The notes under the pieces: model-generated
Told to the model about the DNA's origin: nothing
The model's input: the letters and a program-made list of their open reading frames with translations, nothing else
Database searches by the model: none
Origin: a virus
Virus record (IMG/VR): IMGVR_UViG_3300042691_011352
Span: 1-35,234 of that record
DNA length: 35,234 nucleotides
Direction: 5' to 3' (one strand)
Shown here: positions 10,900 to 32,897 of the stretch, piece by piece
Numbering within the stretch: the first letter of the stretch is position 1
How the letters are laid out: every line of letters starts with the position of its first letter
Position numbers and translations under genes: made by a program

Positions 10900-11030
10900 T
10901 GTTTAAAGTTACATATAGAATGAAAACAATCCATTCAGTACAAATGTTTAAATGGTTTAAAACTAAAACCGAAGCAGAGTTATTTGCTAAGGGTATGGGC
11001 GATCGTTTGATTGGAGTTACTAAGGGATGA
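10899..11030 (+). CDS. 43-aa conserved-context mini-gene upstream of gene 47
   Basis: A small ORF read directly from the sequence: starts on the last base of the preceding stop (TAATG) and ends overlapping the gene 47 start (ATGA), so both junctions are translationally coupled. The product begins MFKVTYRMKTIHS and is basic and Phe/Lys-rich, with no cysteine or membrane segment. The middle (KWFKTKTEAELFAKGMG) looks like the end of a small alpha-beta domain. No function recognised. The tight packing argues that it is real. Confidence 0.65.
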   Translation: MFKVTYRMKTIHSVQMFKWFKTKTEAELFAKGMGDRLIGVTKG

Positions 11031-12079
11031 AAGTAGCAATTATTACAGACCAACATTTTGGTGCAAGAAATGATAGTGTAACATTCCTTGATTTCTTTGA
11101 AAAATTTTATGACAACATTTTCTTTCCTGCACTAGATCAAAATAATATAGATACTCTTCTCATTCTTGGTGATACATTTGATAGAAGAAAATACGTAAAT
11201 TTTTATGCTTTGCAACGAACGAAAGAAATGTTTTTTGATAAACTTAAAAATAAAAATATTAAAGTTTACATGCTTGCAGGAAATCATGATACATATTTTA
11301 AAAATACTAACGAGGTAAACTCTCCAGATTTGCTATTAAAAGAATATGACAACATTACAATAATTGATGACCCAACTACCATTAATGTTGATGGAGTTAA
11401 TATTTGTATGATGCCATGGATATGTCCAGATAATTATAGCAAATCAATAGATCTAATTAATAAGACTAATGCAGAAATATGTATGGGTCATTTCGAAATC
11501 GCAGGATTTGCGATGTATAGGGGTATGCAAAATCATGAAGGGTTGTCTAAAGATTTATTTGAAAAATTTGATTTGGTTTTCTCTGGGCATTATCATCACC
11601 GTTCTGACGATGGTCATATTTTCTACCTTGGAAATCCATACGAACTTACTTGGCAAGATTACAACGATCCCAGAGGATTCCATTTGTTTGATTTATCAAA
11701 TAGAGAAAAACAATTCATTGCAAACCCTTATACTATGTTCTCCAGAGTCGAATATGACGACAAAGAAAGAGAGCCTGTCAATTTAGATGAATTAGATTTA
11801 AAAGACAAGTATGTTAAATTGGTTATTATAAACAAGACTGATTATTATAAATTTGACAAGTTCATCCAAAAGTTGTATAATAAAGGATGTTTCGAAATTA
11901 AAATTATTGAAGATATGTCTGAATTTCAAGATGGTGAGATTGATGAAAACATTAATCTAGAAGATACTATATCAGTTCTTGGTCACTACATTGATTCTAT
12001 TCAAACAGATGTAGATAAAGAACAAGTTAAAACTTTTATGAGATCTTTATACACTGAAGCAATTAACGTGGAGGTATAA
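11027..12079 (+). CDS. 47: Recombination nuclease subunit gp47 (Mre11/SbcD family)
   Basis: 350 aa metallophosphoesterase nuclease that acts with gp46 to resect DNA ends and degrade host DNA. All phosphoesterase motifs are present: DQHFG (8-12), GDTFDRR (48-54), GNHD (85-88), GHFE (154-157) and SGHYHHR (186-192). The C-terminal capping region (about 210-350) is acidic. It is coupled to the preceding 43-aa ORF (ATGA overlap). After its stop there is one base, then a 17-codon ORF before gene 46. Confidence 0.97.
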   Translation: MKVAIITDQHFGARNDSVTFLDFFEKFYDNIFFPALDQNNIDTLLILGDTFDRRKYVNFYALQRTKEMFFDKLKNKNIKVYMLAGNHDTYFKNTNEVNSPDLLLKEYDNITIIDDPTTINVDGVNICMMPWICPDNYSKSIDLINKTNAEICMGHFEIAGFAMYRGMQNHEGLSKDLFEKFDLVFSGHYHHRSDDGHIFYLGNPYELTWQDYNDPRGFHLFDLSNREKQFIANPYTMFSRVEYDDKEREPVNLDELDLKDKYVKLVIINKTDYYKFDKFIQKLYNKGCFEIKIIEDMSEFQDGEIDENINLEDTISVLGHYIDSIQTDVDKEQVKTFMRSLYTEAINVEV

Positions 12080-12080
12080 C

Positions 12081-12134
12081 ATGCAACTGGAATTAGATTT
12101 TGGACAATATATACAATTGGAATTATTTGAATGA
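12081..12134 (+). CDS. 17-aa leader-like mini-ORF between genes 47 and 46
   Basis: ATG at 12081 has the strong Shine-Dalgarno GGAGGT (12070-12075, 5-nt spacing). The frame runs 17 codons (MQLELDFGQYIQLELFE) and its stop overlaps the gene 46 start as ATGA (12131-12134). Gene 46 itself has no comparable RBS, so its translation is likely to depend on ribosomes terminating on this ORF. The peptide is acidic, with two near-repeats (QLELDF / QLELFE). It may be a coupling leader rather than a functional protein. Confidence 0.6.
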   Translation: MQLELDFGQYIQLELFE

Positions 12135-13849
12135 TAATTTTTCATTCAGTGTGTTGGAAAAACTTTCTTTCAACAGGCAATTCGCTTAACAAAGTTTTAC
12201 TAAACAAATCAAACACCACTTTAATTATTGGTAAAAACGGTGAAGGTAAAAGCACAATTTTAGATGCATTATGTTTTTCACTTTTTGGTAAACCGTTTCG
12301 TGATATTAATAAGGCACAATTGGTCAACAGCATTAATGGTAAAGGGTGTGTTGTTGAAATAGAATTTTCTGTTAATTCAAAACAATATAAAATCATTCGA
12401 GGTATTAAACCAAATGTGTTTGAAATTTGGTGTGATAATATTATGATTAACCAAGATGCAGCTTCACGTGATTACCAAAAAGTTCTTGAACAACAAATTC
12501 TTAAATTAAATTACAAAACATTTACTCAGGTTGTCATTCTTGGATCAGCTTCTTTTGTTCCATTTATGCAACTTCCTTCTTCTCAAAGAAGAGAAGTTAT
12601 TGAAGATATTCTTGATATTAGAATTTTCTCTACAATGAACCAACTATTAAAAGAGAAAGCACAGGAAACAAAAGACGCTATTATTAATATTGAAAATGAA
12701 ATTAAATCTGCAAAAGATAAAGTAGAAGCACAACAGGTTCTTATCAAAACAATATCAGAAGCTAAAAGCGAAACTATTAAAAATATACAAACAAAAATAC
12801 AAACTAATAGTTCTACAATTTTTTCAACACAACAAGAAGTACAAACTCTTATTACAGAAATAGCTACATTAAAAAAACAAACAGAAATAAAAGATAAAAT
12901 AAACGAAGATATTGATAAGGCAAAACAGTTAAAATCTAAATTGTCTCAGAAAGTTGAGACTTGTGAACACGATGTTCATTTTTTCTCTGACCATGACACC
13001 TGTCCATCATGTTCTCAAAACATACCAGAAGAATATAGACAACAAATTCTAAAAGATTTAAATGGTAAAATGGAAGACAGTAATATTAAAATTGAAGAGT
13101 TGAGTAATATCTTAACTTCATTGAATGATAAATTGGTTGTTATGAACCAAGTTATGGATAAGATCACTGATAAGAATATTGAATTGTCTACAAAAGTTTC
13201 AACTATCACACTACTTAACACACAGAACACCGAGTTGGAAAAAGAAATTCAAGAACACACACAAGACACAGCAAACATTGATGAAGAAAAACGCAATCTA
13301 AAACAATTAGCACAAGATGCTTTAACTAAAGTTCTTGATAAAAATAAATTGTTGGAACACCGTAATCTAGAAGAAGTTGCCACAGTATTATTAAAAGATA
13401 CTGGTATTAAAACTGCAATCATTCGTGAGTATCTTCCAGCAATGAATAAACTTATTAACAAGTATCTTAATGCAATGGATGCTTATATCCATTTTGAATT
13501 AGATGAAGCGTTTAATGAAACAGTTAAATCTCGTCATAGAGATGACTTCACTTATGCAAGTTTCTCAGAGGGTGAAAAGATGCGTATCGACTTGGCTATC
13601 TTATTTACATGGAGACAGATTGCAAAGATGAAGAATTCCGTCAACACAAACCTACTAATCCTAGACGAGATCTTTGACTCCTCTCTAGACACGTCAGGAA
13701 CAGACTATTTCTTGAACCTAATGAATAGTTTTGGAGATAATACCAATATATTCGTTATATCCCATAAAGGAGATCAGCTGTTCGATAAGTTCCGAAGTGT
13801 TATCAAATTTGAGAAGCGCAACGACTTCTCTATCATAGCAACTAGCTAA
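12131..13849 (+). CDS. 46: Recombination nuclease subunit gp46 (Rad50/SbcC family)
   Basis: 572 aa SMC-like ATPase, partner of gp47. Walker A GKNGEGKST lies at 34-42, followed by the Q-loop region. Long coiled-coil arms (about 175-285 and 300-400) flank a zinc hook CPSC (about 291-294) for dimerisation. The ABC signature FSEGEKMR is at about 478-485 and Walker B LLILDEIFD at about 508-516, with the D-loop and ISHKGD switch His following. Start overlaps the 17-aa ORF. Base composition shifts toward C-rich codons in the last 250 bases. A strong terminator follows immediately. Confidence 0.97.
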   Translation: MIIFHSVCWKNFLSTGNSLNKVLLNKSNTTLIIGKNGEGKSTILDALCFSLFGKPFRDINKAQLVNSINGKGCVVEIEFSVNSKQYKIIRGIKPNVFEIWCDNIMINQDAASRDYQKVLEQQILKLNYKTFTQVVILGSASFVPFMQLPSSQRREVIEDILDIRIFSTMNQLLKEKAQETKDAIINIENEIKSAKDKVEAQQVLIKTISEAKSETIKNIQTKIQTNSSTIFSTQQEVQTLITEIATLKKQTEIKDKINEDIDKAKQLKSKLSQKVETCEHDVHFFSDHDTCPSCSQNIPEEYRQQILKDLNGKMEDSNIKIEELSNILTSLNDKLVVMNQVMDKITDKNIELSTKVSTITLLNTQNTELEKEIQEHTQDTANIDEEKRNLKQLAQDALTKVLDKNKLLEHRNLEEVATVLLKDTGIKTAIIREYLPAMNKLINKYLNAMDAYIHFELDEAFNETVKSRHRDDFTYASFSEGEKMRIDLAILFTWRQIAKMKNSVNTNLLILDEIFDSSLDTSGTDYFLNLMNSFGDNTNIFVISHKGDQLFDKFRSVIKFEKRNDFSIIATS

Positions 13850-13853
13850 CTCG

Positions 13854-13883
13854 AGATCCCTGTGTTTACAGGGATCTTTTTTT
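13854..13883 (+). terminator. Strong terminator after gene 46
   Basis: Perfect 10-bp stem AGATCCCTGT/ACAGGGATCT with a GTTT loop and a 7-T tract. Ends the gp55-gp46 operon five bases after the gene 46 stop. Confidence 0.93.
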
Positions 13884-13894
13884 ATAAAAAACGC

Positions 13895-13923
13895 TTGTCT
13901 TTTATTTCAATTTATAGTAGAAT
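13895..13923 (+). promoter_or_regulatory. Upstream tandem promoter of the VWA/MoxR block
   Basis: TTGTCT (13895-13900), 17-bp spacer, TAGAAT (13918-13923), with a TTTTATT run after the -35. The -10 is embedded in a TAGTA...TACTA inverted repeat. Confidence 0.6.
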
Positions 13924-13977: not shown

Positions 13978-14007
13978 TTGACATAAATTATGAAGTTGTA
14001 GTATAAT
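13978..14007 (+). promoter_or_regulatory. Downstream tandem promoter with consensus sigma70 boxes
   Basis: TTGACA (13978-13983), 18-bp spacer, TATAAT (14002-14007). Both hexamers match the sigma70 consensus. Start near 14014, about 22 nt before the ATG at 14036, with GGAGA as RBS. A TATAAATT (14011-14018) overlaps the start region and could add late expression. Confidence 0.82.
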
Positions 14008-14035: not shown

Positions 14036-16213
14036 ATGGAAATTAAATCTACTGATCTTTCTGCAAGACTGTTAGCTACCGAGAACATCTCTGTTCTACG
14101 TGCTAATACTCAAACTGCATCTTTTGATATCCAATCACGTGTTCTAACACTTCCTCTTTGGAAAGAAATGACTCCAGAAATTGAAGACATGTTAGTTGGG
14201 CACGAAGTTGGTCATGCTCTTTATACAGGTGAAAAATACATGGAGCCTATTAAAGAGAATCGTAAGATGATGTCTTATCTCAACATCCTAGAAGATGTTC
14301 GTATCGAAAAACTAATTAAACGTAAATATCCAGGATTACGTAAACGCATGAACGAGGGTTACAAACAACTCAACGATCGTGACTTTTTTGGCATCAGCAA
14401 GGTTCAATCTTTTGATGATTTATTATTGATTGACAAAATCAATCTATATTTCAAAGCTGGTTATAATTGTGGTGTGACGTTTAATCCAGAAGAACGCACT
14501 TTTATATATCGTGCAGAACACACAGAAACTGTTGAAGATGTTATCCAACTAGCTAAAGAAGTATATGCTTACTCCAAGGAACAATTGGAGAAAAAACTAG
14601 AAGAGATAAAAGAATCACTTGAAGAAGATCAAGAGGAACTTTCCCAAGATGAAAAACAGTCTACCTCTGGTAAGGGTGACTGGGATCCTGAAGAAGAATA
14701 TGATGAAGAAACGAATCATGGTATTCCTGATGTATTTGAAGAGCAATCTCCAGTTATGTCTGATGATATGGAAAAATTGCTTGAGTCTATTACTGAAAAA
14801 ACATTTAGTTCCAAACTTAATGAACTTGCTGACAGCAACACAACATATGTTTATTGGAAATTTGACAATGAATTTTACAAAGACCCAGTTATAGATTATA
14901 AACGTGTTTTAAATGAAACTGTTGATCCAGATGCATGGACTGAAGAACAGTATGAATACTACAGTGGTAGATATCGTAGTATGGAAGAAGATGAACGTTC
15001 TGCAGCAAAAGCCAAATACGATGCAGAATTTAATGCATTTAAGTCTGATTCTGCACGCACCGTAAATTATCTAGTGAAAGAATTTGAAATGAAGAAATCT
15101 GCTGATGTTTACAAACGTGCAAAGATTTCTAAAATTGGTTCTTTAGACATGCGCAAAATTTATGCATACACATTAAAAGACGATTTGTTTAAACGTGTTA
15201 CTATGTTACCACAAGGTAAAAATCATGGTATGGTGATGCTTGTTGATTGGTCTGGCTCAATGAACCATGTTCTTAAGTCTGTTCTAGAACAAGTTATTAA
15301 TCTTGCTATGTTTTGTCGTCGTGTGCAGATTCCTTTCCGTGTACTAGCATTTACATCTGACTATAATAAGGATCAAGATGATTGGGAAAAGTATCGTGCT
15401 TGGAGAGACATACATGATGAAAAACTCAAAAATTCTAAAGAAAAGTTTTTGAACACTGCAAGACAATTTAATTTGTTAGAACTGTTGTCTGACAAAATGA
15501 CTCAAGCAGAATTTAATATTATGTCTCGTCGTTTATTGCATTACAGTTTTATTTGGAACAAAGGTTATGGTACTGGTGGAACACCTTTAAATGAAGCATT
15601 GGCATGGATTTACGAAAATCTTGGTAAATTTATTAAAAAGAACAATCTACAAAAAACTACCTTTATCACTCTCACTGACGGTGAAGGTTCTAGTCTAAGT
15701 GGATATAATTCTTCTTTGGTGACTTCTGATTATGTTTGGGATGAAACAGAAAATCGTCATAAGTCTTTAAATATTAAAAACTTTATACTCGACCCTGTTA
15801 CACAAAAAACTTATTTTATTGATAGATATTCTAATCAACAAACTGAGACGATCTTAAATATGATTAAAGATCGTTATGGTGTTACTATGGTAGGTTTTCA
15901 TTTGACTGATAATCGTCGTCGTGATTTGGTTGGTGCAATTCGTGCTAATCTTCCAGATTATAACGGTAATATTGATTTGCTTATCGAGCAATGGAAGAAA
16001 CAATTTCGTGCAGATGGTGTTGCTGTAGTTAAAAACGCTGGACGTGACGAGTTGTATATCGTTCCACAATCATCTACACAGATTGACGAGGGTGATTTGA
16101 AGATCGATGCGAACAGTTCTTCTAAAATAATTGCAAGAAATTTTACAAAATTCATGAACGTTAAGAAGACTTCTCGTGTTCTTCTAAATCGTTTCGTGTC
16201 TCTAGTAGCCTAA
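14036..16213 (+). CDS. CobT-like protein: HExxH metallopeptidase-type domain plus VWA domain
   Basis: 725 aa, cytoplasmic (no signal or membrane segment). The N-terminal domain holds HEVGH (56-60) followed by NILEDVRIE (about 83-91), the layout of a gluzincin-type zinc site. A Glu-rich low-complexity linker spans about 185-235. The C-terminal half is a von Willebrand A domain with MIDAS motif DWSGSM (404-409) and a later ITLTDGEG strand. The next gene is a MoxR/CobS-type AAA+ ATPase, the usual partner of VWA proteins in MoxR-VWA systems (cobaltochelatase CobS/CobT is one branch). The HExxH domain, and no other cobalamin genes in the window, argue for protein remodelling or proteolysis rather than B12 synthesis; the target is unknown. 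Confidence 0.85.
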   Translation: MEIKSTDLSARLLATENISVLRANTQTASFDIQSRVLTLPLWKEMTPEIEDMLVGHEVGHALYTGEKYMEPIKENRKMMSYLNILEDVRIEKLIKRKYPGLRKRMNEGYKQLNDRDFFGISKVQSFDDLLLIDKINLYFKAGYNCGVTFNPEERTFIYRAEHTETVEDVIQLAKEVYAYSKEQLEKKLEEIKESLEEDQEELSQDEKQSTSGKGDWDPEEEYDEETNHGIPDVFEEQSPVMSDDMEKLLESITEKTFSSKLNELADSNTTYVYWKFDNEFYKDPVIDYKRVLNETVDPDAWTEEQYEYYSGRYRSMEEDERSAAKAKYDAEFNAFKSDSARTVNYLVKEFEMKKSADVYKRAKISKIGSLDMRKIYAYTLKDDLFKRVTMLPQGKNHGMVMLVDWSGSMNHVLKSVLEQVINLAMFCRRVQIPFRVLAFTSDYNKDQDDWEKYRAWRDIHDEKLKNSKEKFLNTARQFNLLELLSDKMTQAEFNIMSRRLLHYSFIWNKGYGTGGTPLNEALAWIYENLGKFIKKNNLQKTTFITLTDGEGSSLSGYNSSLVTSDYVWDETENRHKSLNIKNFILDPVTQKTYFIDRYSNQQTETILNMIKDRYGVTMVGFHLTDNRRRDLVGAIRANLPDYNGNIDLLIEQWKKQFRADGVAVVKNAGRDELYIVPQSSTQIDEGDLKIDANSSSKIIARNFTKFMNVKKTSRVLLNRFVSLVA

Positions 16214-16237
16214 GTTGTTGATTTTATGTAATAAAGA

Positions 16238-16260
16238 AACCTCCAAAAAGTTGGGGTTTT
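16238..16260 (+). terminator. Probable terminator after the VWA gene
   Basis: AACC-T-CCAA pairs with TTGGGGTT (one bulged T, loop AAAG), followed by TTTT. Weaker than the others. Confidence 0.5.
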
Positions 16261-16273
16261 CTGCAAAAAATGC

Positions 16274-16302
16274 TTGCCTTTTATTGCGATTTAAGGCATA
16301 AT
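16274..16302 (+). promoter_or_regulatory. Promoter before the MoxR/CobS-like gene
   Basis: TTGCCT (16274-16279), 17-bp spacer, CATAAT (16297-16302). The GCAAAAAATG stretch just upstream recurs at 17511 and 24370 in the same position. Start near 16309. Confidence 0.68.
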
Positions 16303-16342
16303 TATACTGTAATTTGATGATGAATTTATTTGGAGATATATG

Positions 16343-17485
16343 ATGGCAAAGATTGATTTGAATTTCCGTGAAACGTTTGAGTCCAAGCTGAATGAAATGT
16401 TCCCTGATGTTAATACTAAGGGTATTGTTGCACGACCACAGCTTGTTGAAGTTATGCAGACATTGAAAACAGACAAGTATCCTCTCTGGTTGATGAAGAC
16501 AAAGGTTGGTCGTGGTCTTTACGCAATTAACGGTGGTGCTGCAGTCGCTGTAAAAGAGGAAGCACCACAGATGTCATATAATGTTGATTATACAAACACC
16601 AGTTCTTTAATTCCTAAAAAAGACGAAAACTTTGTTCCATTTGGTAATTACAATGACCTAGAGAACATTATTAAGTCTAGTATTTTCTATCCTGTCTATA
16701 TTAGTGGTCCAACTGGTAACGGTAAGTCCACGATGGTAGAACAAATCTGTGCTAAGCACAATAAGCCACTTATCCGTGTCAATCTTAATATGATGACCGA
16801 TGAAGAACAGCTTATCGGTTCCAAGACTCTCGAAAACGGCAACGTAGAGATAGTCGAGGGTCCAGTGCTTATCGCTATGCGTACTGGCACTACTATTCTT
16901 CTCGATGAGATAGATGCTGGTGCAGCTAACACCCTGCTTTGTTTGCAACCTATTCTTGAAGGTAAACCATACTACTTTAAGCTGAAGAACGAAATGATTG
17001 TTCCAGCGAAAGGTTTTAATGTGATTGCCACTGCAAACACTAAGGGTAAGGGTTCAGACGATGGTCGTTACATTGGTACCAACGTATTGAACGAAGCATT
17101 CCTCGAACGTTTTGCAGTTACATTCGAACAGGATTATCCTAATTCAAAAATTGAAATCAAGATTATCAAAAACTTGATGGCAACTTTCGGATGTGTTGAC
17201 GAGGAATTCTCAGAAACTTTGGTCAAGTGGGCAGATGCAATTCGCAAGACTTATGATGATGGTGGTGTTGATGAAACAATTACGACTCGTCGTATGATCC
17301 ACATCGTTCGTGCTTTTGCGATATTCAAGAATCAGACCAAAGCAGTGGAACTATGTTGCAACCGTTTCGATGTTTCTACTAAGGAAGCATTCCTAAAACT
17401 CTACGATATGGTTGCAAATCCCCAGCCTGAACCTGTTGTAGAACAGGCTCCTCCTGCGGAAGCTAACGTAGAATCACCGTTTTAA
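16343..17485 (+). CDS. cobS: MoxR/CobS-type AAA+ ATPase
   Basis: About 380 aa. An N-terminal domain (about 25-66, including YPLWLMKTKVGRGLY) precedes an AAA+ core: Walker A GPTGNGKST (about 122-130), Walker B ILLDEID (about 185-191), sensor 1 TANT (about 230-233) and NVLNEAFLERF (about 248-258). It ends with a Pro/Glu-rich tail. Homologues in T4-like cyanophages and pelagiphages are annotated cobS (cobaltochelatase subunit), but the core equally fits MoxR chaperone ATPases that work with a VWA protein, here the gene just upstream. Two ATGs overlap (16340, 16343); GGAG at 16332 spaces better for 16343. It has its own promoter. Confidence 0.9.
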   Translation: MAKIDLNFRETFESKLNEMFPDVNTKGIVARPQLVEVMQTLKTDKYPLWLMKTKVGRGLYAINGGAAVAVKEEAPQMSYNVDYTNTSSLIPKKDENFVPFGNYNDLENIIKSSIFYPVYISGPTGNGKSTMVEQICAKHNKPLIRVNLNMMTDEEQLIGSKTLENGNVEIVEGPVLIAMRTGTTILLDEIDAGAANTLLCLQPILEGKPYYFKLKNEMIVPAKGFNVIATANTKGKGSDDGRYIGTNVLNEAFLERFAVTFEQDYPNSKIEIKIIKNLMATFGCVDEEFSETLVKWADAIRKTYDDGGVDETITTRRMIHIVRAFAIFKNQTKAVELCCNRFDVSTKEAFLKLYDMVANPQPEPVVEQAPPAEANVESPF

Positions 17486-17550: not shown

Positions 17551-17579
17551 AGTCATACAAACTTGTGAAAGGATATATT

Positions 17580-18086
17580 ATGTTGAAGTTTGCAAATCTT
17601 ACTCTCGCCCAGAAACGTTTCGTTGTTTCTGTTATTGAGAGCAATCCGCAGTATAAGAGAGATCCTATGATCACTCTAAAAGAATGTGCTTCGATTTATT
17701 ACGAACTCCGTGATAAGCGAACTGGTGTTAAAGGTGAGAAAGTCGGTTATCCTAACTGGCTTTATAACAAGAACAAGGTATCTCGTGGTGTATACCAACT
17801 ACCTGTTCCTACTGATGCAGAACTGTCTAAGTTTGCACAGGATTTGGCTGCAAAAGCTAACCCTGTAAAAGCTGCCAAGACTAAAGTCGCTAAGTTAGCT
17901 AAAGCAAAGATTATCAACGTCAAGCAGAAGTCTACTGCTGCATCGCTAGCATCTACTAGCATCGATGCTCAAAATGATGCCGTTGATGCATCTCGTTTAG
18001 CTAAAATTATCGAAGATTCAGAACCGTATGATGCAGATGTTGAAGATTTCAACCGCATCTTGCGAGAGAATGGTATCGAAGCATAA
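17580..18086 (+). CDS. Unknown protein sharing a block with the MoxR-like ATPase N-terminus
   Basis: 168-169 aa from ATG 17580, chosen because AAAGGA (17568-17573) lies 6 nt upstream; a GTG at 17565 is rejected. Residues 57-75 (YPNWLYNKNKVSRGVYQLP) resemble residues 46-63 of the neighbouring ATPase (YPLWLMKTKVGRGLYAIN), and both follow a helical stretch of similar length, so the two share a small N-terminal domain. The middle (about 85-130) is Lys/Ala-rich (AAKTKVAKLAKAK), as in nucleic-acid-binding tails; the C-terminus is acidic (DADVEDFNRIL). It may be an adaptor or substrate for the ATPase, or a DNA-binding protein; both are inference. Confidence 0.75.
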   Translation: MLKFANLTLAQKRFVVSVIESNPQYKRDPMITLKECASIYYELRDKRTGVKGEKVGYPNWLYNKNKVSRGVYQLPVPTDAELSKFAQDLAAKANPVKAAKTKVAKLAKAKIINVKQKSTAASLASTSIDAQNDAVDASRLAKIIEDSEPYDADVEDFNRILRENGIEA

Positions 18087-19209: not shown

Positions 19210-19241
19210 AATAATGTATTTATTTGAAGGAGAAACTCACA

Positions 19242-19901
19242 ATGAAACTTAGTAAAGAAACCGTTAACCTATTTAAGAATTTTGCAGGTATTAATAGCAA
19301 TCTTCTTTTAAAATCAGGTAATAAATTAGCCACAATTTCTGCTCAGAAAAATGTCATGGCTGATGTTACTGTAAATGAAACATTCCCTGACTTTGCCATT
19401 TATGACCTGAATGAATTTTTAGGTGCAATGTCTTTGTTTGAAGATCCAGAATTGGACTTTAAAGATAAGTTTGTATCAATTAAACAAGGAACATCAGAAA
19501 TTAAATTCTATGCAGCAGATCCAAGTGTATTGACAGCACCAAATAAAGAAATTACATTCCCATCTGCAGAAGTTGAATTTCGTTTGACTACGCAAATATT
19601 AAATATGATTCATAAGACTGCTTCAGTTCTTCGTGCAGCTGATGTTTCTATCGTTGGCGACGGTGCTAATATTACTGCAGTTGTAGGTGATAAGAAAAAC
19701 GCATCTGGTAATTCTTTTAGTGAACCTGTTGGAAGCACTGATAAAAAATTCCGAGTTAACTTGAAAGTAGAAAACTTAAAGATGCTTCCAGGAGATTATG
19801 ATGTTAGTATTTCTAGCAAGAAAATTTCTCGTTTCAAGTCATCAAATAATGATCTAGTTTATTATGTTGCAGTTGAAGCTGATTCTACTTTCGAAGTTTA
19901 A
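19242..19901 (+). CDS. 45: Sliding clamp gp45
   Basis: 219 aa (T4 gp45 is 228 aa), a trimeric processivity clamp for gp43 and the activator of late transcription with gp55. The pattern includes N-terminal KLSKETVNLFKNFAGINSN, the SLFEDPELDF segment typical of T4-like clamps, SVLTAPNKEITFPSAEVEF, and the C-terminal FRVNLKVENLKMLPGDYDVSIS strand set. ATG 19242 is chosen for its AAGGAGA; a TTG at 19224 is rejected. It is followed 2 bases later by a MazG-like gene and then the clamp loader. Confidence 0.95.
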   Translation: MKLSKETVNLFKNFAGINSNLLLKSGNKLATISAQKNVMADVTVNETFPDFAIYDLNEFLGAMSLFEDPELDFKDKFVSIKQGTSEIKFYAADPSVLTAPNKEITFPSAEVEFRLTTQILNMIHKTASVLRAADVSIVGDGANITAVVGDKKNASGNSFSEPVGSTDKKFRVNLKVENLKMLPGDYDVSISSKKISRFKSSNNDLVYYVAVEADSTFEV

Positions 19902-20378: not shown

Positions 20379-21332
20379 ATGATTGAAAGTCGTGACGAAC
20401 AATTTTTGTGGGTAGAGAAGTATCGCCCACAGACTATTGATGAATGTGTACTTCCTGACAGCATTAAAAATACATTTAAACAATATATTGAAAAGGGAGA
20501 ACTTCCAACTTTTCTGTTTAGTGGTACAGCAGGTGTAGGCAAAACTACTGTAGCTAAAGCACTGTGTAACGAAATAGGTGCTGAATATATTATGATTAAC
20601 GGATCTGATGAAGGACGTATGATTGATACGCTTCGTGTCAAGATTAAAAACTTTGCATCAACGGTTTCTCTAACTGAAGCTAAAAAAGTTGTTATTATTG
20701 ACGAAGCAGATTATATGAATGCAGATTCAGTGCAACCTGCTTTACGATCATTCATTGAAGAGTTTTCTTCGAACTGTCGTTTCATTTTTACATGTAATTT
20801 TAAAAACAAGATTATTGAACCACTGCACAGTCGGTGTGCAGTAGTCGAGTTTAAGATCGAGTCAACAGACAAGCAATCTATTGCTGCGCAGTTTTTCAAA
20901 AGGGCAACTCAAATTCTCAAACAAGAGAATATTGACTTTGATCAAAAAGTAGTTGCGGAACTAATCACTAAACACTTTCCAGATTGGAGACGTGTTTTAA
21001 ATGAACTTCAAAGATATTCAGTATCAGGTAAAATTGACTCTGGTATTCTGGTCAATCTTTCCGAAGAATCTTATAAACAATTAATAAAACTTTTGTCAGA
21101 GAAAAACTTCACAGAGGTTCGTAAATGGTTAGGTAAGAATTCTGATATTGATACTACATTCTTATTCAGAGAACTTTACAATTCTTCTGTTCAACATATG
21201 GAACAGAATAGTATTCCACAACTTGTTTTAATTTTAGCTGATTATCAATACAAATCTGCATTTGTGGCAGACCATGAACTAAATATAATGGCAGCTCTAA
21301 CTGAGATTATGGCTCAGTGTAAATTTAAATAA
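20379..21332 (+). CDS. 44: Clamp loader large subunit gp44
   Basis: 317 aa AAA+ ATPase that with gp62 opens and loads the gp45 clamp. It begins with WVEKYRPQTIDECVLP, the clamp-loader N-box. Walker A SGTAGVGKTT is at 48-57, Walker B VVIIDEAD (104-111), sensor 1 FTCN (137-140) and the SRC motif PLHSRC (148-153) with the arginine finger. The C-terminal collar domain (about 230-317) is present. RBS GGAG at 20368-20371 with 7-nt spacing supports ATG 20379. T4 gp44 is 319 aa. Confidence 0.96.
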   Translation: MIESRDEQFLWVEKYRPQTIDECVLPDSIKNTFKQYIEKGELPTFLFSGTAGVGKTTVAKALCNEIGAEYIMINGSDEGRMIDTLRVKIKNFASTVSLTEAKKVVIIDEADYMNADSVQPALRSFIEEFSSNCRFIFTCNFKNKIIEPLHSRCAVVEFKIESTDKQSIAAQFFKRATQILKQENIDFDQKVVAELITKHFPDWRRVLNELQRYSVSGKIDSGILVNLSEESYKQLIKLLSEKNFTEVRKWLGKNSDIDTTFLFRELYNSSVQHMEQNSIPQLVLILADYQYKSAFVADHELNIMAALTEIMAQCKFK

Positions 21333-27799: not shown

Positions 27800-30297
27800 T
27801 GGAATTTTATACTTCGGCACAACCACTTGGTGACAAGATTCTCGTTCGAGGATACCGCAATGGGAAACGTTATCAAGTAAAGGTTGATTTTCAACCGACT
27901 TTGTATGTAACAAATCATAAACAAGATAAACCGTCAGAGTGGAGAACTCTTGACGGAGATAAAGTGTATGCAATCCAACCTGGAACTATTAAAGAAACTA
28001 GAGACTTCTTAAAACGATATGAAGAAGTGCAAGGTTTCTCAATTTACGGTAACACCAATTATGCATATCAATATATCAGTGACACATATCCAGATGACAT
28101 CAACTGGGATATGGAACAAATCAAAGTGTTCACAATTGATATTGAAACTGCCACTGAGAATGGATTCCCAGATATCAGAATGGCGAATGAAGAGATTCTT
28201 CTGATTACGTTAAAGGATCTTCAAACTAAAAAGATAACAACCTTTGGCACACGATCATTTAATTCTAATCGTAATGATGAAGCAAAATACATTTACTGTT
28301 CAACTGAACAACAACTACTCAAAGAGTTTATTATTTTCTGGCAACAAAATTATCCAGATATTGTAACTGGTTGGAATACAGACTTTTTTGATATTCCGTA
28401 TTTGATTAAACGTATTGCCAGAGAACTTGGAGATTCCTTTGCAGAAAAGATTTCTCCATGGGGATACATAAGTGAACGAAAGATTTTCGTGAAAGGTAAC
28501 GAAGAAATTTCATATGACATCCTTGGTATTTCTCAGCTAGATTATTTGGAACTGTATAAAAAATATACATATACTAAACAGGAATCATATCGTTTGGATT
28601 ATATTGCTGATATGGAACTCGGTGATAAGAAAAAAGAAAATCCAGGAACTGACTTTAAAGATTTTTATACAAATTATTGGGAACAGTTTGTTGAATATAA
28701 CATTCATGACGTTGAACTTGTTGACCGTCTGGAAGACAAGATGCGATTGCTTGAGTTACATTTGACCATGGCATATAATGCTAAGATTAATCCAGAAGAT
28801 GTTTATTCTCAGGTTCGTATGTGGGACACTATCATCTATAATCACTTGAGAAAGAAGAAGATTGTTATTCCACAGAAGTCATCTTCTGGCAAAGATGCTC
28901 AATTCGAGGGTGCATATGTTAAAGATCCTCTGATTGGAGAGCATAAGTGGGTTGCGTCTTTTGACTTAAACAGTCTATATCCACATTTAATTATGCAATA
29001 TAACATTAGCCCAGAAGCACTAACCAGCGAGAAGATGTCAGTGACTGTTGATAAGTTATTAAACAAAGAGATTGATACATCATATCTCAAACGTAGAGAT
29101 TTAGCATTGACAGCTAATGGGTGGACTTATCGCAAAGACGTAAAAGGTTTTATGTCTGAATTGATGGAACAAATGTATGTAAACCGAAGTAAGTTTAAGA
29201 AGCAGATGTTGAAAGCTGAGCAAGAATATCAAAACGATAAAACTAAAACACACTTATTAAAAGACATATCACGTTTGACTAATCTGCAAATGGCGATGAA
29301 GATTGCTTTGAATTCAGCATATGGTGCAATGGGTAATCAGTATTTCCGATACTTTGATATTCGTATGGCTGAAGGAATCACCACTTCAGGTCAGTTATCC
29401 ATTCGTTGGATGGCAAATAAACTGAACGCTTTCCTAAACAAAACGCTTAAGACACAAGACAAAGACTTCGTAATTGCAATTGATACTGATTCCATTTATT
29501 TGTCATTGGAAGAATTGGTTGAAAAGGTTTGTATTGATAAAACTACTGAACAGAAGATTAAGTATATGGATCGTGTTTGTGAAGAAGTTTTTCAACCATT
29601 CATTGATAGTAGTTATCAGGAATTGGCAGATTATATGAATGCATATAGTCAAAAGATGCAGATGAAGCGAGAGGTTCTAGCTGATAAAGCAATCTGGACT
29701 GCCAAGAAACGATATGTTATCAATGTGCATAACTCTGAGGGTGTTCAGTATGCTAAACCTAAAATTAAAGTTATGGGTTTGGAAATGGTTAAATCATCCA
29801 CACCTGCAGTTATTCGTGATAAATTAAAAGACTCTTTGAATGTTATTTTAAATGGTAACGAAAAGTCATTACATACATATGTTACAGATTTTAGAAAAGA
29901 ATTTAATAAGATGCCAGTGGAAGACATTGCCTTTCCTCGTGGTGTGAATGGTATGAAACAATATGCAGGTAGTCCGATTTATGCTAAAGGAACACCAATT
30001 CATGTTCGTGGTGCACTGCTTTATAATCACCATTGTAAACGATTGGGTCTTGATAAAAAATATCAACCAATTCGTGATGGAGATAAGATTAAGTTCGTTT
30101 ATTTGAGAACACCAAATCCATTCCAAGAAGATGTTATCGCATTCAGCCAGCATCTTCCTAAGGAGTTTAAATTGGAAGCATACATAGATTATGATACTCA
30201 ATTTGAAAAGGTGTTTATTGATGCACTTCAAATTGTTATTGAACCGTTAAAATGGAAAACCGAAGAACAGGTTTCTTTGGAAGACTTTTTTGGATAA
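27799..30297 (+). CDS. 43: Family B DNA polymerase gp43
   Basis: 832 aa (T4 gp43 is 898) replicative polymerase with proofreading. Exo I TIDIETAT (Asp114), exo II GWNTDFFDIPYLIKR, exo III YNIHDVELVDRL. Polymerase motif A SFDLNSLYPHLI (Asp389), motif B KIALNSAYGAMGNQ (about 501-514), motif C AIDTDSIYL (Asp562-Thr-Asp564). The C-terminus ends in VSLEDFFG, a likely gp45 clamp-binding peptide. ATG 27799 overlaps the DexA-like stop (TAATG); an upstream in-frame ATG at 27751 inside dexA is rejected. Intact, no intein or intron. Confidence 0.98.
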   Translation: MEFYTSAQPLGDKILVRGYRNGKRYQVKVDFQPTLYVTNHKQDKPSEWRTLDGDKVYAIQPGTIKETRDFLKRYEEVQGFSIYGNTNYAYQYISDTYPDDINWDMEQIKVFTIDIETATENGFPDIRMANEEILLITLKDLQTKKITTFGTRSFNSNRNDEAKYIYCSTEQQLLKEFIIFWQQNYPDIVTGWNTDFFDIPYLIKRIARELGDSFAEKISPWGYISERKIFVKGNEEISYDILGISQLDYLELYKKYTYTKQESYRLDYIADMELGDKKKENPGTDFKDFYTNYWEQFVEYNIHDVELVDRLEDKMRLLELHLTMAYNAKINPEDVYSQVRMWDTIIYNHLRKKKIVIPQKSSSGKDAQFEGAYVKDPLIGEHKWVASFDLNSLYPHLIMQYNISPEALTSEKMSVTVDKLLNKEIDTSYLKRRDLALTANGWTYRKDVKGFMSELMEQMYVNRSKFKKQMLKAEQEYQNDKTKTHLLKDISRLTNLQMAMKIALNSAYGAMGNQYFRYFDIRMAEGITTSGQLSIRWMANKLNAFLNKTLKTQDKDFVIAIDTDSIYLSLEELVEKVCIDKTTEQKIKYMDRVCEEVFQPFIDSSYQELADYMNAYSQKMQMKREVLADKAIWTAKKRYVINVHNSEGVQYAKPKIKVMGLEMVKSSTPAVIRDKLKDSLNVILNGNEKSLHTYVTDFRKEFNKMPVEDIAFPRGVNGMKQYAGSPIYAKGTPIHVRGALLYNHHCKRLGLDKKYQPIRDGDKIKFVYLRTPNPFQEDVIAFSQHLPKEFKLEAYIDYDTQFEKVFIDALQIVIEPLKWKTEEQVSLEDFFG

Positions 30298-30304
30298 GGA
30301 AAAT

Positions 30305-30958
30305 ATGGAAGCACTAATTTATAATGTTGGTGGTATACCTATTATGTTGTATAACACTGGTAGAGTCGTAACAGATAAAGAATATGAAACAATAATTATG
30401 CATGATTATTCTGCTCATATGTATAAGGACACACCAACACCAGGACTTATCACTAAGTCACATTATGTTCTGGAGCATAAAGATCTAATTGATATTAAAT
30501 TGTTTTGTAAACAATATCTTGACAAATATGTTAAAGAAACCCTATGCATTACTAATGACTTTATGATAACCAATTCTTGGTTTACAAGAAATCCAACAGG
30601 TGCTTCTCATCATGCTCATAATCACCCAAATTCTATATTTTCTGGTGTGTATTATTTGGATGCAGAAACATCTGATGTTACATTTGAATTTGAAAGTACT
30701 ATTAGTAAACATTTTAGATTTAACTATGAGTTTTCTGAGTTAAATGGATTCAATACTAATTCTATTACGCTTTCTCCGAGAACTGGAGATGTTTTAATAT
30801 TTCCAAGTTGGATTTTACATAAGGTATCACCGAACACTGGCTCAACAGATAGATTAGTATTGGGTTTTAATTCATTTGTCACTGGTGAACTAGGATGTGT
30901 AGATATTAATACATATTTAAATTTAAACACAAAAAATGCAACGATTGAGGAGAAATAA
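30305..30958 (+). CDS. 2OG-Fe(II) oxygenase, phage prolyl-hydroxylase-like
   Basis: 217 aa from ATG 30305 (AAGGA just upstream). The double-stranded beta-helix signature is clear: SWFTRNPTGASHHAHNHPNS with the His cluster (102-107) and following FSGVYYLDAE, then GDVLIFPSWILHKV with His172, and Arg183 in DRLVLGF as 2-oxoglutarate ligand. T4-like cyanophages carry several such oxygenases of unknown substrate. It heads a three-gene cassette with thioredoxin and a carbamoyltransferase inserted between gp43 and uvsX. Substrate unknown. Confidence 0.87.
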   Translation: MEALIYNVGGIPIMLYNTGRVVTDKEYETIIMHDYSAHMYKDTPTPGLITKSHYVLEHKDLIDIKLFCKQYLDKYVKETLCITNDFMITNSWFTRNPTGASHHAHNHPNSIFSGVYYLDAETSDVTFEFESTISKHFRFNYEFSELNGFNTNSITLSPRTGDVLIFPSWILHKVSPNTGSTDRLVLGFNSFVTGELGCVDINTYLNLNTKNATIEEK

Positions 30959-31211: not shown

Positions 31212-32897
31212 ATGAATATTCTTGGAATATATGGTGGTTTTGATTGGGATGCTAATAAGTTTTGGCATCCCAATAGATTAAATTACACAACATGGGTGCA
31301 TGATGCTGGTGCCACATTGTTTTGTAGTGGAAAACATATACATTCTGTTTCAGAAGAAAGATTAACTGGTATAAAATATGATGGTAACTATCCAATAAAC
31401 TCAATTAAACAGTGTTTAGATATTGGTGGTATCTCTGAGGTTGATATAGATGTTGTTTGTATACCAACACAGTGTATTGAGATATTTTATGAACAGTTAG
31501 AACTTGGTATAGTGGAAAAAACTATAAAACGAATGTTTCCTAATGCAAAATTAGAAATTTATTCTCATCATTTATGCCATGCAGCTTCTTCTGTGTTTAC
31601 CAGTAATTTTAATGATGGTGTTATTATTACGCTAGATGGTGCTGGCTCTTTAGCCTTAGATTTACACAATAGAGTTTTTGAACATGAGTGTAACACTATA
31701 GGATATTTTGACAAAAGTAAAAAACAATTTAAGCTATTTGTTGGGGATAGATTGGTCAACAGGTTTGGAGATTACTACCATAGGAATTCTTTTAAAGCCT
31801 ATGTTACCAAACAGAATATACCAGAAGAAACATGGGATGATATAATACCAGAATCAGTAGATGGTAAAGTTATGGGGTTATCTAGTTATGGTAAAGCCAG
31901 CAAAATACAACGATATAAAAAATCTGATAAATCTTGGGGTGGCGTTCCTTATGTAATGTTTGATCTTAATGACATAGATACATCTTTATCTCCAGAAGAT
32001 CTTGCTGCAACATGTCAAAAAACATTTGAGTCTTCGATGCTTGATTATATCAAAATGTTATCTGAAATGGATTATTTAAAATCAAACGTCTGTTTTGCTG
32101 GTGGTGTTTTTCTAAATGTATTGTCTAACACAAACATCATCAGAACAGGTATATTTGATAATGTTCATATACCACCATTTACTAATGATACTGGTTTAAA
32201 TTTTGGTGCTGCAGCTTATCATGCATTTAAACAGGGGTTTGATATTGAAGTGCCTGTTAATATAGCACTTCTTGGAAAGAAATATTCTGATGAAGAAATT
32301 GGATTGGAAATAAACAAACACCCAGTGAATGCTACATATTATAAGCAGTCTGATTTAGTATTCAAAGATGTTGCTAATAAACTACACCAAAATAAAATTG
32401 TTGCATGGTTTCAAAATAGATCTGAGGCTGGACCAAGAGCATTAGGTGCTAGATCTATTTTAATGAGTGCTCGTAAAAAAGAGCACAAAGATATTTTAAA
32501 TACAAGAGTTAAACATAGAGAATACTGGAGACCATTTGCTGGAATTATTTTAAAAGAATATGTTGATGAATATTTTGAAGATGCGTTTGAAACACCATAT
32601 ATGTTATATTCATTAACAGTTAAAGAAGATAAACGTGGTGTTATCCCTGCCATAACCCATGAAGATAATAGCTGTAGAATACAAACAATTACATATGAGC
32701 AGAACCCAGAAGTGACACAATTAATAACTGAGTATCAAAAACTATCAGGTGTACCAGTTATTTTGAACACTTCATTTAATGATAATGGTAAACCGATAGT
32801 TGAAACACCAACTCATGCAATTGAAGCATTTTTGAAAATGGATATTGATTATTTGGTAATTGGAAATTATATTGTAAATAAAAAGGATATTAAATGA
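31212..32897 (+). CDS. Carbamoyltransferase (NodU/CmcH/TobZ family)
   Basis: 561 aa O-carbamoyltransferase using carbamoyl phosphate and ATP. The N-terminal Kae1-like domain has HDAGATLFC (about 30-38), SEERLTGIKYDG, HHLCHAASSVF (H119, H120, H123: metal site) and GVIITLDGAGS; next FAGGVFLNVLSN and PFTNDTGLNFGAAAY. The C-terminal domain has QNRSEAGPRALGARSIL and HREYWRPFAGIIL. Complete, no frameshift. Overlaps uvsX by 4 bases (ATGA). Family members modify sugars, antibiotics or Nod factors. In a phage the target might be a nucleotide, glycan or small molecule; unknown. Confidence 0.93.
   Translation: MNILGIYGGFDWDANKFWHPNRLNYTTWVHDAGATLFCSGKHIHSVSEERLTGIKYDGNYPINSIKQCLDIGGISEVDIDVVCIPTQCIEIFYEQLELGIVEKTIKRMFPNAKLEIYSHHLCHAASSVFTSNFNDGVIITLDGAGSLALDLHNRVFEHECNTIGYFDKSKKQFKLFVGDRLVNRFGDYYHRNSFKAYVTKQNIPEETWDDIIPESVDGKVMGLSSYGKASKIQRYKKSDKSWGGVPYVMFDLNDIDTSLSPEDLAATCQKTFESSMLDYIKMLSEMDYLKSNVCFAGGVFLNVLSNTNIIRTGIFDNVHIPPFTNDTGLNFGAAAYHAFKQGFDIEVPVNIALLGKKYSDEEIGLEINKHPVNATYYKQSDLVFKDVANKLHQNKIVAWFQNRSEAGPRALGARSILMSARKKEHKDILNTRVKHREYWRPFAGIILKEYVDEYFEDAFETPYMLYSLTVKEDKRGVIPAITHEDNSCRIQTITYEQNPEVTQLITEYQKLSGVPVILNTSFNDNGKPIVETPTHAIEAFLKMDIDYLVIGNYIVNKKDIK

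Follow-up and report, generated by a model that had tools for sequence, protein, structure and literature searches.

In marine phages, "cobS" and "cobT" rank as vitamin B12 "auxiliary metabolic genes", and a 2010 comparison of 16 cyanophage genomes lists cobS in the core shared by all of them (excerpt of PMC3037559). Does such a gene pair contribute to cobalamin synthesis, or does it encode a protein-remodelling machine with a peptidase-like site? The question is raised by a fragment of a T4-like phage of 35,234 nt, the whole of which is called the window here. It contains the following two genes.

14036..16213, plus strand: HExxH-VWA protein gene, an open reading frame of 725 aa (PHROG 459 "peptidase", 591.6 bits)
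16340..17485, plus strand: MoxR/CobS-type AAA+ ATPase gene, 381 aa (AAA_5, PF07728, 68.4 bits; PHROG 249, 350.7 bits)

These profile matches place the pair in PHROG 459 and in PHROG 249, the label of the latter being cobS or porphyrin biosynthesis. Both open reading frames and the HEVGH, NILEDVRIE, DWSGSM and Walker A and B motifs given in the initial annotation were present, and the assignment as a MoxR/CobS-type AAA+ ATPase paired with a MIDAS-VWA protein was borne out by the AAA_5 match, the invariant motifs, the VWA fold and the pairing of the genes. The VWA gene was located 5' of the ATPase gene in all 46 viral loci with at least 3 kb of upstream sequence, these loci having been found via the ATPase. 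The two genes are obligatorily linked. With the same gene order and context, the window pair is a member of the phage "cobST" described in the excerpt of PMC8651126 (PHROG 459/249, 1576 and 17276). The gene family itself is already known, and the point disputed here is the B12 function published for it.

The VWA protein, modelled with a mean pLDDT of 81.4, is composed of an N-terminal domain, an acidic linker and a VWA domain.

14054..14380, plus strand: N-terminal zincin-like domain, residues about 7 to 115 (DSSP on the model; relatives are homologous to the CobT N-domain)
14201..14215, plus strand: HEVGH, residues 56 to 60, with putative zinc ligands H56 and H60 and putative catalytic E57
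14282..14308, plus strand: NILEDVRIE, residues 83 to 91
14636..14755, plus strand: acidic linker of low confidence, residues 201 to 240 (pLDDT below 50)
15218..16078, plus strand: VWA domain, about residues 395 to 681, with structure matches to NorD and MDN1-MIDAS
15245..15262, plus strand: MIDAS motif DWSGSM, residues 404 to 409
15671..15685, plus strand: MIDAS motif LTDGE, residues 546 to 550, with D548

In the predicted model, the N-terminal domain starts with a helix, followed by three strands (residues 19 to 22, 29 to 31 and 36 to 39), the HExxH helix (47 to 63) and the helix of the second motif (78 to 97), so that HExxH is positioned on a helix after a beta-sheet, as in zincins. Evaluation of this motif needs to consider how the proteins compared were collected. 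The set used contained 51 unique Kyanoviridae-type VWA proteins with a covered N-region, all identified by way of the ATPase, without use of HExxH; another 80 loci, found with HExxH-bearing patterns, were left out of this count and were used in alignment A4 for the model. H56, E57, H60, N83, E86, D87 and R89 were unchanged in 51 of 51 proteins, as were the MIDAS residues D404, S406, S408, T516 and D548, which the window protein also possesses. None of the 71 VWA open reading frames in the ATPase-found set had a substitution at H56, E57 or H60, and 18 to 19 partial ones had a gap at the HExxH positions. Conservation of the HExxH residues was complete across proteins down to 21% identity. A chance occurrence of HExxH was ruled out by the conservation in all 51 proteins from loci found via the ATPase, and the N-terminal zinc-peptidase pattern of the initial annotation is a conserved zincin-type motif.

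The residues of the second motif behaved differently from each other in the alignment with distant relatives. N83 and D87 were both present in 18 of 18 rows with HExxH and each in one of eight rows without it, while E86 was found in 17 of the 18 rows with HExxH (ICP2 has V at this position) and in all eight without. All three residues are candidates for the third zinc ligand, with N83 and D87 covarying with HExxH. Searches with the window protein itself, by phmmer against the PDB and as a single-protein scan of viral contigs, gave no useful match and no match, respectively, and its N-domain had no Pfam match. In a PDB search, the N-domain profile retrieved neither a zincin (leishmanolysin, at E 1.8, was the only one) nor CobT with a meaningful E-value; two weak matches, AcrIIA26 at E 0.0047 and RPA1 of RNA polymerase I at E 0.0082, were taken as chance.

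The ATPase contains the expected nucleotide-binding motifs and an additional N-terminal domain, the predicted helix/strand order of which resembles a winged helix.

16358..16525, plus strand: ATPase N-terminal domain, residues 7 to 62 (DSSP on the model; no Pfam match)
16706..16729, plus strand: Walker A GPTGNGKS, residues 123 to 130, with invariant columns G123, G126, G128 and K129
16895..16909, plus strand: Walker B ILLDE, residues 186 to 190, with invariant D189 and E190

The best sequence match of the ATPase in the PDB was midasin/Rea1/Mdn1 (1.6e-43, versus 1.9e-22 for CobS). In the structure search, among the matches listed, CbbQ2 was nearest to the ATPase (Z 25.5) and NorQ second (Z 23.7), and the VWA protein was nearest to NorD (9qh6_G, Z 15.9, 260 residues, rmsd 6.1), with the MIDAS domain of MDN1 (8ql1_A) at Z 14.7; the matches of the VWA protein cover residues 335 to 725. 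CobS and CobT chains were absent among the matches listed, an absence that excludes nothing. Midasin/Rea1/Mdn1 is a single giant chain of eukaryotic ribosome assembly and is not known to have a peptidase domain. NorQ and NorD, the second nearest AAA+ protein and the nearest solved VWA fold among these matches, have nitric oxide reductase as target, and the excerpt of PMC13036017 makes no mention of an HExxH domain in NorD.

By treating "CobT/CobS" as merely a usual label, the initial annotation went too far: sequence comparison shows the pair to be genuinely homologous to CobST, with the N-domain linked to CobT through relatives. PhiR41_1, SSU5 and other relatives match Pfam CobT (PF06213) and CobT_C (PF11775), and seven of ten N-domains tested alone were over the PF06213 cut-off, among them the HExxH-bearing ones of E. 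coli, Klebsiella, SSU5 and CRP-810. The phage N-domain profile aligned with the cellular CobT N-domain profile (Prob 94.9, E 4.7e-8). This link became firm only once distant phages had been added: in hhalign, the Kyanoviridae profile A4 aligned with full CobT in the VWA part only (E 3e-6; N-domain, E 0.26). The window VWA protein itself was not over the cut-offs of PF06213 and PF11775, TIGR01651 (CobT) matched neither this protein nor any of nine entries tested, including four phage records, and the window ATPase did not reach the cut-off of TIGR01650 (CobS; 83.1 bits versus 558.55). Both systems have the AAA+/VWA-MIDAS gene pair in common, and in the tree cellular CobS groups within the phage ATPases, with those of cobaviruses and roseophages, at 100/98. 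In contrast to the phage-type VWA protein, which keeps HExxH, 30 of 30 cellular CobT proteins lack it at the N-domain site. No paper linking CobT to HExxH was found among open-licence PMC papers, preprints not being included; the authors of PDB entries 9ujv, 9uka and 21vu may already note the CobT fold.

The gene neighbourhood of the pair points to replication and recombination, instead of the action on host or virion proteins that had been suggested. In the window, the pair is located between gp46/47 and the sliding clamp.

11027..12079, plus strand: gp47-like SbcD nuclease (PHROG 100)
12131..13849, plus strand: gp46-like SbcC (PHROG 77)
19224..19901, plus strand: gp45-like sliding clamp (PHROG 223)
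20379..21332, plus strand: gp44-like clamp loader (PHROG 168)

Among the viral loci with room, gp46 accompanied the pair in 31 of 35 cases, and gp45/gp44 did so in 36 of 42. Several unrelated phages and a plasmid carry the pair at most a few genes away from DNA polymerase III alpha or from primase/DNA polymerase genes.

Concerning expression, each gene had been assigned its own promoter, one of them with consensus hexamers, which might mean strong early expression.

13853..13878, plus strand: terminator-like hairpin after gp46
13893..13923, plus strand: second promoter-like site, GCTTGTCTTTTATT...TAGAAT, 5' of the VWA gene
13978..14007, plus strand: consensus sigma-70-like promoter TTGACA-18-TATAAT, 5' of the VWA gene (12 of 12 positions)
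16241..16256, plus strand: terminator-like hairpin between the VWA and ATPase genes
16272..16302, plus strand: weaker promoter-like site, GCTTGCCTTTTATT...CATAAT, after this hairpin and before the ATPase gene

The consensus hexamers before the VWA gene were confirmed, and a perfect site occurred in 7 of 20,000 shuffles of the 186-nt gap upstream of this gene; the site before the ATPase gene, which can also be delimited as 16274 to 16302, is promoter-like and weaker. Only the perfect site stands out, because the number of promoter-like sites in the region (59) equals the shuffle mean (61.5). A search for a conserved promoter motif gave 27 matches with up to three mismatches versus 28.3 by chance, but the two exact matches precede the two genes.

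Three phage or plasmid lineages (hairong, BUCTxx99 and an Acinetobacter plasmid) have lost HExxH and keep the pair, adjoining DNA polymerase III alpha. Therefore, some members must work without HExxH, and cleavage would not be essential in all of them. The losses in CobT and in this phage-plasmid group were separate (fewest changes, three), with a single clade of all HExxH losers being rejected (p-AU 7e-8). Such losses favor a possible, if somewhat doubtful, alternative, a non-proteolytic remodelling or metal-insertion chaperone with a structural, regulatory or substrate-binding metal site, in which AAA+ twisting does the work as proposed for NorQD. NorD/NorQ and Rea1/Mdn1, the closest folds among the matches listed, act by remodelling their targets, and the excerpts concerned do not mention cleavage. 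On the other hand, E57 and both histidine residues are invariant in the 51 Kyanoviridae-type proteins and the 18 distant rows with HExxH. This counts against a purely structural site because such a site would not need E57, but the point is weakened because the three HExxH losers also keep E57. Separate losses would also agree with HExxH being a leftover without present function, which the complete conservation across such divergent proteins makes extremely improbable.

CobN accompanies CobT in 26 of 29 genomes. The check for CobN in phage or host named in the initial annotation yielded none in the window, none in 26 phage or plasmid records, none in three cellular genomes with the HExxH type and none in one host, E. 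coli, which harbors PhiR41_1. SAR11, the host of HTVC008M, is not known to synthesize B12. The published proposal has phage CobST cooperate with the CobN of the host, hijacking it to raise cobalamin synthesis (excerpt of PMC8651126). It can refer to the true homology, to the grouping of cellular CobS with cobavirus and roseophage ATPases and to one cobavirus with a B12-dependent ribonucleotide reductase over the cut-off. The other 25 of the 26 records had no such reductase over the cut-off, with weaker matches below it in 17 records; the window ATPase reached 83 bits on PD_CobS against 558.55, and the site kept by the phage proteins is the one lost in CobT. Assistance to a cobaltochelatase is, hence, a very improbable role of the pair. 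According to a published statement, phage cobT was "mistakenly annotated as a peptidase". As far as the active site is concerned, this view looks wrong, because the phage proteins keep HExxH, CobT has lost it and CobN is absent, the homology to CobT being real nevertheless.

The pair is probably a phage AAA+/VWA remodelling machine of the CobST/NorQD/midasin type with an intact N-terminal metallopeptidase-like site, and not a cobaltochelatase. Of the preference for a metallopeptidase or remodeller over B12 metal insertion, the part on B12 stood, cobaltochelatase being the poorer explanation without CobN and with a CobT lacking the motif; proteolysis as such was put too firmly, three relatives retaining the pair without HExxH. 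In the remodelling machine, the ATPase would form a ring, on which the VWA protein would dock via its VWA domain and C-terminus, as in NorQD. The MIDAS metal would grip an acidic residue of the target protein, ATP turnover would twist or pull this target through the linker, and the HExxH domain would cleave it. Judging from the gene context, the target is likely to be a protein that acts at the replication machinery or close by. SPRTN/Wss1 with p97 is an HExxH protease with an AAA+ partner at replication forks, beside the sliding clamp; its likeness to the phage pair is solely an analogy in such features. A decidedly unlikely extension would see the pair as an ancient mobile-element AAA+/VWA metallopeptidase machine at the replication module, a counterpart of SPRTN/Wss1-p97 perhaps clearing or cutting proteins that block the fork, from which the aerobic cobaltochelatase CobST was recruited on loss of the peptidase site, with CobT as a pseudo-peptidase.

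The kinship to CobT is surprising since it would make CobT the bearer of a peptidase-like domain with a lost metal site. The B12 question is directly testable with PhiR41_1, since its host, E. coli K-12, lacks CobN. Should the pair prove to be a remodelling peptidase, a great deal of virus-ecology annotation would be wrong, and "cobST" would represent a widespread phage machine that has so far been unstudied.

The two genes of the pair read as follows.

14036-16213, + strand, VWA protein (PHROG 459 "peptidase," 591.6 bits)
16340-17485, + strand, AAA+ ATPase (PHROG 249 "porphyrin biosynthesis," 350.7 bits)

The window VWA protein gave no Pfam match above the cut-off, while AAA_5 was found in the ATPase, which reached 83 bits on the NCBIfam model PD_CobS, far below its cut-off of 558.55. 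When the PDB was searched with the ATPase, midasin ranked first and CobS next, both with the sequence (1.6e-43 and 1.9e-22) and with the profile (3e-76 and 7e-39). Relatives of the VWA protein were detected by tblastn in 463 of 50,697 phage records. Because selection by the motif under test was to be avoided, 80 viral loci were gathered via the ATPase. A VWA open reading frame was present in 71 of them, and 51 unique frames spanned the N-terminal region. All 51 kept H56, E57, H60, N83, E86, D87, R89, and the MIDAS residues. The HExxH-VWA and MoxR-type ATPase pair of the initial annotation is present as described, with HExxH, NxxED, and MIDAS conserved. In all 46 loci where at least 3 kb of sequence precedes the ATPase gene, the VWA gene was located upstream on the same strand, and the nine loci without a VWA frame all had less than 3 kb. 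Where the flank was long enough, 31 of 35 loci contained gp46, and 36 of 42 contained gp45 or gp44.

HExxH occurred in 21 of 24 diverse proteins. The proteins without it, from hairong, BUCTxx99, and an Acinetobacter plasmid, were each still paired with an ATPase adjoining DNA polymerase III alpha. In a site alignment combining five CobT with 21 rows from phages, plasmids, and cells, in which the rows are not independent, N83 and D87 were found in 18/18 rows with HExxH and each in one of the eight rows without, and E86 in 17/18 and 8/8, respectively. Since the distribution of N83 and D87 follows HExxH and that of E86 does not, N83 and D87 appear to belong to the metal site, unlike E86. HExxH status required at least three changes on the ATPase tree. 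A single clade of all proteins without HExxH was rejected (p-AU 7e-8); one of the three phage and plasmid proteins was not (p 0.25).

The model of the VWA protein, built from a 55-row alignment, had a mean pLDDT of 81.4. In its predicted N-domain, one helix and three strands precede the HExxH helix (residues 47 to 63), after which comes a helix from 78 to 97 carrying N83 to E91. A minimal zincin has its elements in this order. In structure searches, the VWA part was nearest to NorD (Z 15.9, rmsd 6.1, 260 residues), followed by the MIDAS domains of Mdn1 (Z 14.7) and Rea1 (Z 13.7), and the ATPase fold to CbbQ2 (Z 25.5), followed by NorQ (Z 23.7). The first 60 residues of the ATPase may form a winged-helix-like order. 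Four of six SSU5-type phages and their kin gave Ros/MucR zinc-finger matches at the ATPase N terminus, all below the cut-off (best 24.5 versus 25.4). The N-domain profile also matched the anti-CRISPR AcrIIA26 (9zq6_B) weakly across the NxxED helix (E 0.0047), probably by chance.

Full-length relatives outside the Kyanoviridae combine HExxH with Pfam CobT; the PhiR41_1 (E. coli K-12) protein carries HEVAH and matches PF06213 with 94.7 and PF11775 with 274.6 bits. When only residues 1 to 170 were searched, PF06213 exceeded the cut-off in 7 of 10 proteins, four with HExxH (PhiR41_1, GArcari, SSU5, and CRP-810) and three without (hairong, BUCTxx99, and the Acinetobacter plasmid); Rhizobium N1_10 and Succinatimonas were slightly below it, and the window protein did not match. 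A profile of 21 N-domains matched cellular CobT (Prob 94.9, E 4.7e-8). The HExxH was absent from this site in all 30 cellular CobT fetched out of 47 genomes above the NCBIfam cut-off, one of which has an unrelated HExxH close to the start of the open frame. The N-domains are thus homologous, but the metallopeptidase-like site is missing in CobT and retained in the phage protein. In the ATPase tree, which is unrooted and has several long branches, cellular CobS grouped with the cobavirus and roseophage ATPases (100/98) and the window ATPase with the Kyanoviridae (100/99). The phage gene is called a lower-ligand-base phosphoribosyltransferase in record OV696614.1 and in PMC11288001; this label confuses it with an unrelated protein that is also named CobT.

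A remodelling peptidase is the reading favored here, with moderate confidence. Another possible but distinctly less probable reading is a remodeller without proteolysis; the proteins lacking HExxH keep their ATPase partner, and PMC13036017 gives a twisting model for NorQD. Against this reading, the site is kept in all 51 proteins above. A cobaltochelatase, according to the view of PMC8651126 that phage CobST acts with host CobN, which PMC9503304 repeats, is improbable despite the shared ancestry with CobST. A check for CobN in phage or host had been proposed by the initial annotation: CobN (PF02514) was found in none of 26 phage and plasmid records carrying the pair or relatives, nor in E. coli, one of 14 control genomes. 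Of the 29 genomes with CobT, 26 have CobN; the three cellular genomes with an HExxH-type protein have none. A B12-dependent reductase exceeded the cut-off in one of the 26 records, with weaker matches in 17 others.

The window is the complete 35,234-base record of a T4-like phage. According to the PHROG descriptions, to which the T4 gene names are matched here, the pair follows genes for portal, scaffold, major head protein, UvsW-like helicase, late sigma factor, gp47, and gp46, and precedes gp45, gp44, ligase, DNA polymerase, and UvsX. The polymerase-UvsX interval also contains genes for a Nol-like carbamoyltransferase (31212-32897) and a 2OG-Fe(II) oxygenase (30290-30958). The pair stays with replication genes in unrelated phages: near DNA polymerase III alpha in several, near primase or polymerase in others, and with gp46/47 and the clamp in the Kyanoviridae. 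In S-CREM2 the pair has another location, near primase, MazG, and glutaredoxin. No polymerase was seen within the stretch fetched for the Microcystis, Roseobacter, Gordonia, and Rhodococcus phages, and no annotated ATPase adjoins the Reynauld VWA gene. The consensus-hexamer promoter also held up, as a perfect site upstream of the VWA gene that exceeds chance (7/20000 shuffles). Sites of the TTGTCT...TATAAT type also precede the 17565 gene and the clamp gene, and the pair may be expressed early. A short motif is common to the product of the gene behind the ATPase (17565-18086) and the ATPase N terminus, YPLWLMKTKVGRGLYAI versus YPNWLYNKNKVSRGVYQL (E 3e-4, single comparison). Relatives of this gene also come after the ATPase gene in several nearby viral loci, and its product may be a third component.

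Cellular HExxH-VWA proteins occur in Anaerobiospirillum, Succinatimonas, and uncultured Aeromonadales (loci L190, L192, and L193), all without CobN. The gene adjoins a CobS-like ATPase in L193 and DUF3413 in the other two; in L192 it also adjoins queA and tgt, with no evident prophage there. Three further cellular loci (L230, L231, and L232) contain CobT/CobS-like pairs without HExxH next to a gene that resembles one for sulfoacetaldehyde acetyltransferase; one of the three genomes has CobN. Among 72,556 plasmid records, 956 contain a relative of the PhiR41_1 VWA protein, in many cases under a cobalamin or porphyrin biosynthesis annotation; the 956 records look like phage-plasmids.

The role of the phage gene is called uncertain in PMC11288001, and PMC7911831 handles the halovirus pair as an AAA+/vWA chaperone. 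The present evidence agrees with the literature on homology to CobST and disputes the function. Caulobacter vibrioides, a control genome, has CobT above the cut-off and no CobN, as do 3 of the 29 CobT genomes, and CobST may do other work in cells, too. The observation that the phage pair retains a metallopeptidase-like site lost by CobT is true, and it serves as a useful correction.
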